57,562 bases of DNA, from assembly GCF_028279465.1 (NCBI RefSeq), contig NZ_JANQNS010000002.1, positions 1 through 57,562 on the forward strand, read 5' to 3'. Positions within the stretch are counted from its first letter, which is position 1. Each line of letters starts with the position of its first letter. The stretch is from Parasphingopyxis sp. (lineage in GTDB: Bacteria > Pseudomonadota > Alphaproteobacteria > Sphingomonadales > Sphingomonadaceae). The notes below the pieces were generated by a model. The model was not told the origin of the DNA. It was given only the letters and a program-made list of their open reading frames with translations, and ran no database searches. Below, in pieces: positions 29,430 through 32,352 of the stretch. A program made the translations under genes and the position numbers.

Positions 29430-29519
29430 GGGATTGTAGTCACAGTGCACAAAACTCTTTCCGAATTCCTCCGCCTTCCCATCGTTCCGGACCCATCTCT
29501 ATCTGCCCGCTGCACCCAC

Positions 29520-29660
29520 ATTGCCTATCCTCCCGCCTATGTCTGACAGCACACCCCAAACGCACATCCTGGAACGGCGTCGCCATTGCGCCGGGGCGGG
29601 TGGTCGAGTTGGCGCGGGAGGCGGGGGCGCATGGGCGCTCGGTCGGGCTGACGCGGAACG
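29520..29660 (+). pseudogene. Decayed partial duplicate of the 30686 gene
   Basis: About 135 bases, including the upstream CTATCCTCCCGCC, match the start of the gene at 30686-31033 ([10 protein letters not shown], then [16 protein letters not shown]). Two C residues are missing near codon 6, so the frame breaks at once, and the match ends near GGGCTGACG. It is a non-functional fragment that marks a local duplication. Confidence 0.75.
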
Positions 29661-29690
29661 CTAGCGCCACCCGAGATGCGGTGGACGTTT

Positions 29691-30092
29691 TCACGCCCAC
29701 CGCACCGGTGTGGCGGCCTCCGGCTTGGCGACAATCTGCCAGTCGTCGCGATAGAGGATCTGGCCGGGCTGCTCGGTGTGCAACCGGCCGATCGGAATGC
29801 CGAGATCGTCGAGCAGCGCCTTCAGGATAAAGGCGTGCCGAACCATGTCCCGTGCATCGTCGCGGAACCAGCAAATGCCGTCGTCATAATAGCGCCCGCG
29901 CGATTTCACACTGAACGAGCGCCATGAGGGGATGGGCAGGTTCGCATTGAACCAGTCCAGCTCCTCCCGGATCGCCAGCCTGTGCGCCTTGGGCGTCCGG
30001 GAATCGTACGAAAGGGACACCGCCGGCGCAAAGAGGCCATAATGCCCGCGCCGCCGATTGGCGGGCTCGGGCGTGACAAATCGTATATACAT
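29691..30092 (-). CDS. Conserved hypothetical protein (133 aa, MYIRFVT type)
   Basis: The protein starts MYIRFVTPEPANRRRGHYGL and contains ELDWFNANLPIP and ICWFRDDARDMVRHAF. I remember small conserved bacterial proteins with this order (IRFVT, GLF, L-x-W-F-N-x-x-L, WFRD), of unknown function. That pattern fixes the start at 30092 rather than 30176. It points toward the duplicate pseudogene and away from the SEC-C gene. Confidence 0.75.
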   Translation of the reverse strand: MYIRFVTPEPANRRRGHYGLFAPAVSLSYDSRTPKAHRLAIREELDWFNANLPIPSWRSFSVKSRGRYYDDGICWFRDDARDMVRHAFILKALLDDLGIPIGRLHTEQPGQILYRDDWQIVAKPEAATPVRWA

Positions 30093-30325
30093 AAAGCCCT
30101 CGACGACGCGCGCAGCGGCGCGGACACGCCAGCGGCGCGCGCTTTCATGGTCGAAATGGAAAGGCCGGGCGCGCATACGCGCCGGCCGGCTCAGGAGCCT
30201 GTCGCCCCGATCAGTTCCAGGGCGAAGGCGTCGTCATCCAATATATCAACATGGGACACCTCATTCATCTATTGGGCCGGCAGGCACATGCGCCCGCCAG
30301 CACTGTTGGAAAACCCGAAAAGTCT

Positions 30326-30571
30326 CTAGCGCCAATAGTCGTTGCGCCGAGCACCATCGAAACCGGCCCGATTTAAGGCAGCATTTCTTGAAATCTCTTC
30401 CCCGATCCGCAGGGGCACAGATCATTGCGGCCGAGTTTCTCGAGCAGCTCTTTCTCGCCGCGCACCGTCCGTAGTCCGCGCTTCACCCGCGTTTCGGACG
30501 GATAGCCCTTACGCCGCTTGGCGATGACCTCGAAAGGACGGCAGATCGTCATGCTTATCGAATTTGGACAT
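30326..30571 (-). CDS. SEC-C zinc-motif protein, copy 1, apparently read through three +1 frameshifts
   Basis: The start [13 protein letters not shown] follows AGGAGG. The frame then shifts +1 at TTTC (30535-30532) into [18 protein letters not shown]...[13 protein letters not shown], again at 30393-30390 into [10 protein letters not shown], and again at 30362-30359 into [11 protein letters not shown] and TAG, giving 80 aa. [13 protein letters not shown] is a complete SEC-C motif only after the second shift. Read without shifts, the start frame ends after 20 codons. The copy at 32017-32265 has the same three sites. SEC-C motifs bind zinc and occur in SecA and small adaptor proteins. Confidence 0.72.
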
Positions 30572-30685
30572 TTTCGCCTCCTATCGCTGTGCTCATGTGT
30601 TGGGGAGCGCCGGATAGCGTGTCCGCGCTGATCCGTAAAGCGGCACCCATTCCCTTCCGGCCTTACCCATCCTATCCTCCCGCCC

Positions 30686-31033
30686 ATGTCCGACAGCATG
30701 CCCCCCAAACGCACGTCCTGGAACGGCGTCGCGATTGCGCCGGGGCGGATGGTCGAGCTGGCGCGGGAGGCGGGGAAGCATGGGCGCTCGGTCGGGCTGA
30801 CGCTGCACAAGAACGGCAATCTCGCGATCGATAGCTATGATACTGGACCGGTCGTCGAAGCGGTGCATGGCGATGGCGATTATGAGCGCTTCTGCACGAT
30901 TGCCGCCGAAGACGTCCCCCGCCTCGCCGCCGCCCTGCTCCACGCCGAATTCGAAGGCGACCTCAAAGCCGTCGACCGCCTCAAGGCGTTCTGCGACGCC
31001 TATGGCATCAAGGCGCGGATTACGAGCTGGTAG
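30686..31033 (+). CDS. Conserved hypothetical protein (115 aa)
   Basis: [20 protein letters not shown] is followed by [20 protein letters not shown] and a C-terminal helical part ending KARITSW. It is complete and in frame, unlike the fragment at 29520-29660. Its start lies 115 bases from that of the divergent SEC-C copy 1. No domain recognised. Confidence 0.72.
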
Positions 31034-31045
31034 GTTTTCCTCATC

Positions 31046-31127
31046 CGTCATTCCAGCGAAAGCTGGAATCTCTGGCGGCTAGCGATCCGCCCAACGGCCT
31101 GAGATCCCAGCCTCCGCTGGGATGACG
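31046..31127. repeat. REP-like inverted repeat (CGTCATTCCAGCG type)
   Basis: CGTCATTCCAGC-gaaa-GCTGGAATCTC and GATCCCAGC-ctcc-GCTGGGATGACG are two hairpins in inverted order, the usual dimeric REP layout. Confidence 0.85.
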
Positions 31128-31219
31128 ATGTCTTGTCCGTGGATGTCCATTTGCCCTGAGTTGACTCCACGCGCGAAGGCTTGTGTCGAAAAGCTGTCCT
31201 ACAGTGTGCCAAATCGGTT

Positions 31220-31336
31220 ATGATGAGCGCATATGTTGAACCAACCGATTTTCGCCGTCCGGTCTCGCGCATGCGGTACCCCATTCGGAAGGTCACACGG
31301 GTCGCGCGCATCCGTGCGCAAAGCTTCGCGCGATAA
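31220..31336 (+). CDS. Possible small basic protein (38 aa)
   Basis: It reads MMSAYVEPTDFRRPVSRMRY then PIRKVTRVARIRAQSFAR. The composition is protein-like and basic, but there is no clear ribosome site and I know no homologue. This is the only candidate in the otherwise empty 31128-31426 stretch. Confidence 0.3.
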   Translation: MMSAYVEPTDFRRPVSRMRYPIRKVTRVARIRAQSFAR

Positions 31337-31426
31337 TCCTGGATTTCCGCCAATGCGCGCCCGTCCAACACAGCGTGACGATGGCTCTGGCCTACCCCCG
31401 CCCTGTGTCAACCAGTGTCAACCGGA

Positions 31427-31999
31427 TCAAAGCCGCAACTGATGCGCGAGCCGCGCGACATAGGCTTCCGCCTCCGCCGCTGGCAGTTTCAGCGCGCCGC
31501 GGACATGGCGGATGGCGCGGTCGTAGCGGTTTTGCAGGAGCAGCGCCTTTACCTCGCGCTCGGCATATTGATCGGCCGTGTAGCAGGCCTCGCTGAGCCG
31601 CGCCGTGCCCGCCGGCCCCTCGCGCCGCCAGACGGCCGTCGGGTCCGCCTCCGGCAGAGCGTCGGGCACGATCATGGGCGCCGGCGCGCTGACCGCCGCG
31701 ACGAGTTCGGCCGGGCTTTGCGCGGGCTCGGGCTCGGGCAGCGGATCGGGCGCGGCAGGCGGTTTTGGCGCTACTGCCTTTGGTTCGGGACGCGGTGCGG
31801 GCCGCACGGGCGGCCTTTTGCCATATTCGCGCCGTCCGAAATGCCTCTGGCCGAATTCGGGCGGCGAAATCAGGTCGCGCCGGCTGCTGCGATGGCCGAG
31901 ATAGAGGAACAGGCCAAGACAGCCCGCCAGCGCGCCGAGCCCGATCAGAGGATAGATGAGCGAAAACTCCACGCGCCGCGCATAGCGCGATGCGGTCAA
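31427..31999 (-). CDS. Single-pass membrane protein with proline-rich linker (190 aa)
   Basis: One N-terminal membrane segment (LIYPLIGLGALAGCLGLFLY, about residues 14-34), a long Pro/Ala-rich linker (about 60-125) and a C-terminal helical domain (ACYTADQYAEREVKALLLQN). It starts 18 bases after the SEC-C copy 2 stop on the same strand, so the two are probably co-transcribed. Function unknown. Confidence 0.7.
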   Translation of the reverse strand: MTASRYARRVEFSLIYPLIGLGALAGCLGLFLYLGHRSSRRDLISPPEFGQRHFGRREYGKRPPVRPAPRPEPKAVAPKPPAAPDPLPEPEPAQSPAELVAAVSAPAPMIVPDALPEADPTAVWRREGPAGTARLSEACYTADQYAEREVKALLLQNRYDRAIRHVRGALKLPAAEAEAYVARLAHQLRL

Positions 32000-32016
32000 G
32001 ATCGGGTTAAGCCGGC

Positions 32017-32265
32017 CTACCGCCAGTAATCGTGCCGTTCCGAACCATCGAAAGCGGCCGGACTTGAGGCAGCATTTCTTGAAATCTTCTCCCCGACCCG
32101 CACGGGCACAGATCGTTGCGGCCGAGCTTTTCGAGAAGCTCCTTCTCGCCGCCGCGTACGGCGCGAAGCCCGCGCTTGACCTGCGTTTCGGACGGGAAGC
32201 CCTTACGGCGTTTGGCGATGACCTCGAAAGGACGGGAGGTCGTTATAGTCGCGATGGTTCGTCAT
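32017..32265 (-). CDS. SEC-C zinc-motif protein, copy 2, same three +1 frameshift sites
   Basis: The start [13 protein letters not shown] follows AGGAGG. Shifts of +1 at TTTC 32229-32226, 32084-32081 and 32053-32050 join [18 protein letters not shown]...[23 protein letters not shown] and [11 protein letters not shown] with TAG, 81 aa. Relative to copy 1 it has one extra Gly codon, and most other differences are synonymous third-base changes in whichever frame is being read. The sense frame has no start codon of its own after the first shift, so translation must begin upstream of it. Confidence 0.72.
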
Positions 32266-32352
32266 CTTCGCCTCCTATATTGTGTGGAACGGTCGCGCTC
32301 GATAGCGCCGCGCCGCGCAAAAAGCAAAACCGGCGCGAAACCGCATACCCGC

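Follow-up and report, generated by a model that had tools for sequence, protein, structure and literature searches.

A stretch of 57,562 nucleotides (nt) from the genome of Parasphingopyxis sp., hereafter the window, carries on its minus strand two copies of a short gene for a SEC-C protein, each of which can be read as one polypeptide only if a surplus base is stepped over at three TTTC sites. We consider it highly probable that this is a programmed gene with +1 ribosomal frameshifting at several sites. Judged from the sequences, one polypeptide is encoded across the sites, each segment is kept by purifying selection in its own frame, the word in the ribosomal P site is UUU, and stops follow early in the unshifted frame. 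The step over the surplus base would be ribosomal slippage, and the gene may act as a frameshift-gated sensor.

Two interrupted genes in the window

The two copies share one layout, with lengths given in amino acids (aa):

30326..30571, minus strand: copy 1 of the putative frameshift-gated SEC-C gene, 80 aa after joining
30577..30582, minus strand: ribosome-binding site AGGAGG of copy 1, 5 nt before ATG
30532..30535, minus strand: site 1 of copy 1, TCC TTT CGA G, with surplus base
30509..30511, minus strand: TAA closing the unshifted frame of copy 1, inside CGT AAG of RK, 7 codons past site 1
30390..30393, minus strand: site 2 of copy 1, AGA TTT CAA G, without which the SEC-C knuckle lacks its CC pair
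30359..30362, minus strand: site 3 of copy 1, CGG TTT CGA T
32017..32265, minus strand: copy 2 of the putative frameshift-gated SEC-C gene, 81 aa after joining
32271..32276, minus strand: ribosome-binding site AGGAGG of copy 2, 5 nt before ATG
32226..32229, minus strand: site 1 of copy 2, TCC TTT CGA G
32203..32205, minus strand: TAA closing the unshifted frame of copy 2, 7 codons past site 1
32081..32084, minus strand: site 2 of copy 2, AGA TTT CAA G
32050..32053, minus strand: site 3 of copy 2, CGC TTT CGA T

An initial annotation, made from the letters of the window alone, had described the coordinates, starts, AGGAGG sequences, three TTTC sites and common TAG of both copies, and all of these were found again. 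When TTTC is taken as a single Phe step, there are exactly three such steps in each copy, and the readings, of 80 and 81 aa, end at TAG; the extra Gly that had been reported as an in-frame difference between the copies is real. Both joined proteins belong to the SEC-C family (Pfam PF02810), scoring 38.3 and 37.3 bits over profile positions 1-18 of 19, where the curated cut-off is 20.4 bits, and Pfam matches SEC-C alone in them, not release factor 2. The CC pair is present solely in the joined reading of both copies, where it is supplied by the second shift. The earlier claim that this shift is a precondition for the SEC-C motif is correct for the CC pair and the full knuckle, but not for the family match as such, since the unshifted middle frame alone already matches SEC-C with 28.6 and 28.4 bits over positions 1-14 of 19. 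The PDB matches, six in number, are SecA chains and YchJ-C. Identity as an anti-phage defence protein was not found, the PADLOC matches of both window proteins being confined to the SEC-C knuckle.

In the joined reading the two copies differ by 32 synonymous and 18 nonsynonymous changes, with a ratio of nonsynonymous to synonymous differences (pN/pS) of 0.17, in agreement with the initial observation that the changes are mostly synonymous; the first 12 codons hold 10 of the 18 nonsynonymous differences.

Second copies, two of them partial, also occur in other genomes (L055:5555 on, L059:1915 on, and G168). In the window, pieces like the 115-aa gene at 30686-31033 (plus strand) are found again near 29521-29664, as judged by eye over 29440-31033, so that the two-copy region may derive from segmental duplication.

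Shift sites and selection across the family

We searched for the joined protein in 199 genomes of the organism's own family; 47 had a match, mostly SecA-like, and about ten of the 199 contained homologues broken at matching places. A second search, with one genome per species, used an alignment of only the stretch between sites 1 and 2 and gave at least 513 relatives, of which the best 80 were kept; because the search patterns lie wholly between these sites, the 80 species loci were unselected for shifts. Two viral contigs were added, as were loci retrieved by searching with the joined protein or with an alignment that spans the Phe of site 1 through the Phe of site 2. The 126 places so assembled include 2 that could not be decoded and 18 with identical DNA, which leaves 106 copies (79 from species genomes, 2 viral, and 25 from further genomes). 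The comparison with relatives that the initial annotation had proposed came out in its favour, as the surplus bases stand at matching sites in genomes of many genera; it also went further, placing the gene in several phyla and revealing a fourth site outside the window, an interchange of C and T at the fourth base, and a maximum of three shifts per gene.

Site 1 consists of TTT followed by C or T in 98 of the 106 copies (TTTC in 79, TTTT in 19), and the next codon in the unshifted, or 0, frame is CGA in 77, TGA in 19, and CAG and CGC in one each. The eight exceptions are an insertion after the TTT-C word in L067, L072 and L083, an added shift in L125, changed words in L017 and L120, L182, and the remnant in L059. 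Site 2 is shifted in 97 copies (TTTC 92, TTTT 4, TTTG 1), in frame in 4 and unassigned in 5, and the next codon is CAA (86), CAG (5), TAA (4), GAA or CCG (1 each). The two remaining sites are used less often: site 3 is shifted in 41/106 copies (CGA 35, TGA 6), in frame in 60 and unassigned in 5, and site 4 is shifted in 40/106 (TAG 29, CAG 9, CCG 2), in frame in 60 and unassigned in 6. All assigned shifts consist of TTT and a single surplus base, which is C or T in nearly every case, with the decoder permitted to slip at TTT alone at sites 2-4. Exchange of C and T at the fourth base interconverts CGA with TGA, CAA with TAA, and CAG with TAG. A conserved surplus base at a slippery word thus recurs across lineages, as expected of programmed +1 frameshifting.

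A rule of exactly three shifts per gene had to be dropped: three shifts occur in 72 of the 93 complete genes and two in the other 21, and none has four. Twelve complete genes have Phe at both sites 3 and 4; eight of them shift at site 4 alone and two at site 3 alone, and the remaining two lack the site 2 shift, L119 shifting at sites 3 and 4 and L118 just at site 3. We can offer no explanation for this pattern beyond cost. In-frame variants at site 2 have TTC (L118 and L180), TTT (L117) or TAC (L119), and those at site 3, in 60 copies, include TAT, TAC, CAT and CAC, with the joined frame kept. TTT is left unshifted as TTT-CCN in FPSE in 6 copies, and the same holds for TTT at site 3 (7 copies), site 4 (2 copies) and site 2 (1 copy). 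Sites can also be replaced or moved: in L017 an in-frame upstream reading replaces site 1, L194 has lost site 1 and has the shift word TTT TAA at the next Phe, and L125 has an extra shift word at that place. In L073, site 2 lacks TTT, and the gene does not decode. Damaged-looking copies are found in L079, L182, the second copies of L055 and L059, and the plasmid copy L240.

Selection was estimated from 91 genes in 884 pairs at 70-97% identity, with related genes treated as independent, and gave pN/pS in the shifted frames of 0.62, 0.23, 0.35 and 0.21 for segments 1-4, where segment 4 is everything after a third shift. Third codon positions hold most of the differences: for positions 1, 2 and 3, segment 2 has 11608, 10261 and 37282, segment 3 has 2048, 1650 and 4975, and segment 4 has 961, 798 and 2499. 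Purifying selection is seen on both sides of the shifts, with segment 1 weakly constrained (0.62), and the values after the first shift are not near 1; values near 1 there are what the initial annotation had named as fatal to its reading. The three sense frames are open throughout in 2, 20 and 13 of 98 genes, and any antisense frame in at most 18 of 98, so that a continuous sense or antisense frame was rejected for most genes.

The genes are equipped for strong initiation, as AGGAGG, GGAGG or AGGAG stands ahead of 92 of 98 starts, mostly 5-6 nt from the start codon. The first 0-frame stop past site 1 lies within 12 codons in 92/98 genes, and within 7 codons in 89; stops are more spread at site 2. 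Codon choice places these stops. With related genes counted as independent in this and the following tests, R8, the Arg before Lys in RRK, has a T-ending codon in 39/90 cases, against 83/870 other Arg codons (p 1e-14), and S5, the Ser before Lys, in 23/82, against 34/367 (p 2.6e-5), while the neighbouring Arg R7, taken as a control, has one in 13/91 (p 0.15); the T-ending codons at R8 and S5 produce the 0-frame stops after site 1. Likewise, Tyr at site 3 is TAT in 26/32 against 76/136 (p 0.009), which provides TGA for ribosomes unshifted at site 2, whereas His at site 3 has no codon bias (4/8 against 37/87, p 0.72). A sequence resembling a Shine-Dalgarno (SD) element precedes site 2, with mean duplex energy of -5.24 against -3.79 in synonymous shuffles; 37/97 copies have an SD-like motif of at least 4 nt within 15 nt upstream of it, and in 13 this motif ends 3 nt before TTT, the spacing of prfB. 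Downstream folding is slightly stronger than in synonymous shuffles after shifts 1 and 2 (p 0.006 and 0.0002), but not after the third (p 0.2). The conserved extra bases, the per-frame purifying selection and the stop-placing codon choice support the initial proposal of programmed frameshifting, as opposed to recent decay, at the level of sequence comparison.

Proposed slippage mechanism and alternative explanations

The best mechanism would be slippage of peptidyl-tRNA-Phe from UUU to UUC or UUU before a slow codon or a stop. By established codon-anticodon rules, tRNA-Phe pairs more strongly with UUC than with UUU, so that a +1 slip on UUUC gains pairing. ARAGORN called 44 of the 45 tRNA matches of this genome, all with three-base anticodons (the 45th, a partial match, was uncalled), and the sole tRNA-Phe among them has the anticodon GAA. 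Wild-type tRNA-Phe of Salmonella is reported, on the basis of peptide sequencing, to shift +1 at UUU-CAA under shortage of tRNA-Gln, and P-site +1 slippage is reported to be induced if A37 of tRNA-Phe is without its ms2 or ms2io6 groups (PMC3617221). Variants of prfB slipping on TTTTTGA have been recorded in a report that also describes the prfB shift as missing from most Sphingomonadales (PMC12421855).

In the proposed series of events, ribosomes would initiate at the strong SD sequence, read about 12 codons, and come to a UUU whose next codon is slow (CGA) or a stop (UGA). Ribosomes remaining in frame would terminate at a stop a few codons on; with an empty A site, peptidyl-tRNA-Phe (GAA) would move by one base, from UUU to UUC or UUU. 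The slip would be repeated at site 2, where UUU stands before CAA, CAG or UAA, and most genes would require one further slip, at site 3 or 4, the complete SEC-C protein being made solely then. Output would be the product of two or three shift probabilities, and the gene would be near-silent until frame keeping fails, for instance through A-site starvation, hypomodified tRNA-Phe, or damaged tRNA or ribosomes. The basic SEC-C protein would then act on ribosomes or RNA, in some bacteria alongside the RNA ligase RtcB. We put forward tentatively, as a possibility that is on balance doubtful, that in this family, spread over seven phyla by record title, two or three +1 slips of tRNA-Phe, each of them obligatory, form a multiplicative gate metering cell-wide frame loss, and that its SEC-C product, ribosome- or RNA-binding and in some hosts acting alongside RtcB-type RNA repair, is made solely when translation is damaged. 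The product of such a gate may feed back on frame keeping.

Several observations weigh against programmed slippage or against such a gate. SD-like sequence is below that of shuffles at sites 1 and 3 and no different at site 4; the tests of codon choice, SD-like elements and folding count related genes as independent; and, given how sites 2-4 were decoded, the TTT rule is independent just at site 1. TTT-CGA is not avoided in the ordinary genes of this genome (6 observed against 3.8 expected in 321 open reading frames of a 433-kb sample), so that the word alone must be weakly shifty or dependent on context. Three shifts of low efficiency, multiplied, could leave a vanishingly small output, and a shift at site 4, where the unshifted frame often ends at once, adds few residues. 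Finally, no RtcB was found in the window's genome. At the same time, the lack of avoidance of TTT-CGA, taken with strong initiation and several sites, favours, rather than establishes, a conditional output.

It is quite possible, if still short of probable, that nothing is sensed, and that the shifts are always efficient and set a low fixed protein level, or that the arrangement is a tolerated relic. Both the conserved position of the stops and the SD-like help at site 2 would suit a shift that is constitutive, like that of prfB; the variable A-site codon points to no single signal, and RtcB, the hint of a damage response, is missing from the window's genome. A near-consensus start signal would, however, be a costly route to low output, and a relic would be easily lost, because a single-base deletion restores the frame; such losses are seen, yet 93/93 complete genes keep two or three shifts. 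The surplus base might also be handled by a tRNA that reads four bases, by transcript slippage or by editing, which we regard as improbable. Every assigned site has TTT followed by a single extra base, as a UUUY-reading tRNA would explain, but no four-base tRNA is present among the 44 called in this genome, which has one tRNA-Phe, and TTT-C is common within long ordinary reading frames; runs of 3-4 T are short for polymerase slippage.

That the segments are separate short peptides, or that a single continuous or antisense frame encodes the true protein, is very improbable in our view. The middle segment does lie inside open frames of 68-224 aa in several genomes, and its match to Pfam SEC-C above the cut-off needs no shift; but the scarcity of genes with any frame open throughout, the natural in-frame fusions that link the segments at sites 2 and 3, and the position of the CC pair in segment 3 all argue for a joined product. 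Hardly credible are decaying pseudogenes or errors of sequencing or assembly. The damaged-looking copies listed above would suit such an account of individual loci, but the identical surplus bases in many genera, including records without a bin label, exclude chance and error for the family, and per-frame purifying selection and compensating in-frame variants likewise oppose it.

Distribution, neighbouring genes and known systems

Record labels of the family copies span seven bacterial phyla. They name Sphingomonadales, Parvularculaceae, Hyphomonadaceae, Caulobacter, Rhizobium, Chitiniphilus, several gammaproteobacteria, Chthoniobacter, Oscillochloris, Phycisphaerae, Rubrobacter, a Thermodesulfobacteriota bin and a Dormiibacterota bin. 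Outside Pseudomonadota most records are bins, although Chthoniobacter flavus and Oscillochloris sp. ZM17-4 have no bin label. Occurrence is patchy: at E <= 1e-12 the gene was found in 20/397 genomes of the own family and 5/385 of the class, and at the phylum level in 6/398, true members being split from SecA-type knuckle matches by E-value and coverage; it was not found in 9 other listed genomes of the same genus. A tree was built from 73 of the 106 copies; the phyla interleave in it, and 20 of its 70 inner branches are well supported; with so few supported branches, gene transfer between phyla is possible on the tree, though not demonstrated by it.

No member was found among 20 of 29 rows listed for phage records, and 40 of 602 rows listed for plasmid records gave two, from one genus, with two viral contigs also carrying the gene; on these counts a mobile-element gene was rejected. 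Neither plasmid record has an annotated feature beneath the match, in a gene table known to be incomplete. On plasmid CP114562.1 of Ca. Manganitrophus (L240), a decayed-looking unannotated copy is flanked by genes for a tyrosine recombinase and a SIR2-family protein. The viral contig L119, which may be viral or a mis-sorted bacterial piece, has an EF-Tu-like gene about 1.5 kb from the frameshift gene.

The immediate neighbours of the frameshift gene vary, and a single conserved operon was rejected. One partner recurs, and is present in the window:

29691..30176, minus strand: W161, a 161-aa gene with the motifs GICWFRDDA...PGQILY.DDYQVIAKP

W161 has no match in Pfam, NCBIfam or PADLOC. Its relatives are found near 15/82 family loci and 11/40 further loci, against 0/94 control loci, and stand up- or downstream of the frameshift gene in sphingomonads, Hellea and Marinicaulis. 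W161 occurs in 7 of the 199 genomes, four of which have the frameshift gene, in one case about 100 kb apart.

In 7/82 family loci an RtcB gene, identified as such by Pfam each time, is found no more than about 3 kb from the frameshift gene; in four of the seven (L044, L074, L082, L085) it is the direct neighbour, with the same orientation and at most about 55 nt away. As the seven include two Chitiniphilus and two Rhizobium loci, they represent about five independent lineages. The 40 further family loci, which are shorter and mostly sphingomonad, gave one weak RtcB match (L122). RtcB was found in 0/94 control loci, of which 44 are informative, since 50 come from the window's genome, itself without RtcB; the comparison with controls is therefore rough. 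That absence indicates that the frameshift gene does not depend on RtcB, and a partnership as a general rule was rejected. In L077 (Rubrivivax bin) and L082 (gammaproteobacterial bin), a PcfJ-like gene, the frameshift gene and RtcB are found together. The SecA metal-binding domain is reported to interact with ribosomes (PMC6620043), and there is a report on iron and SecA-like domains, as cited in PMC8076867. The family may have a role in sensing translation damage or responding to it.

The CxCx8CC knuckle resembles that of the SecA C-terminal metal-binding domain, YecA and YchJ, which are single-frame proteins; here it is part of a basic protein of 80 aa with a ten-residue motif and a VKRG motif of its own, and with an interrupted frame. 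To our knowledge, bacterial programmed frameshift genes have one site each. Euplotes, a ciliate, has many frameshifted genes. The present case would share frequent +1 frameshifting with Euplotes genes (PMC4759687), but is one bacterial gene family. It is like prfB, the gene of release factor 2, in the proposed +1 slip of the P-site tRNA before a stop near the gene start, and, for some family members at site 2, in the SD-like element 3 nt before the slippery word (PMC12421855); it is unlike prfB in having two or three sites instead of one, the Phe codon UUU, a different and uncharacterised product, and sense codons, CGA and CAA, in positions held elsewhere by stops. Site 1 of the window, UCC UUU CGA G, also resembles the +1 site of influenza A PA-X, UCC_UUU_CGU, which shifts in the same direction (PMC3498833); PA-X belongs to a eukaryotic virus, has one site and is not related by descent. 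We found no report of this SEC-C frameshift gene in open-licence literature, a scope that leaves out bioRxiv and does not prove absence, nor was the gene found by word searches in the portions of a review available to them (PMC5009743).

Such genes are easily overlooked: the two plasmid records are unannotated at the match, although their gene table is incomplete and the plasmid copy that was decoded has a decayed look. A short conserved gene with two or three sites, found across phyla, offers natural material for the study of +1 slippage by tRNA-Phe; its slippery word, early stops and even relocated sites can be compared from phylum to phylum. If the gate is indeed a sensor, it would represent a new way of tying gene expression to ribosome fidelity.

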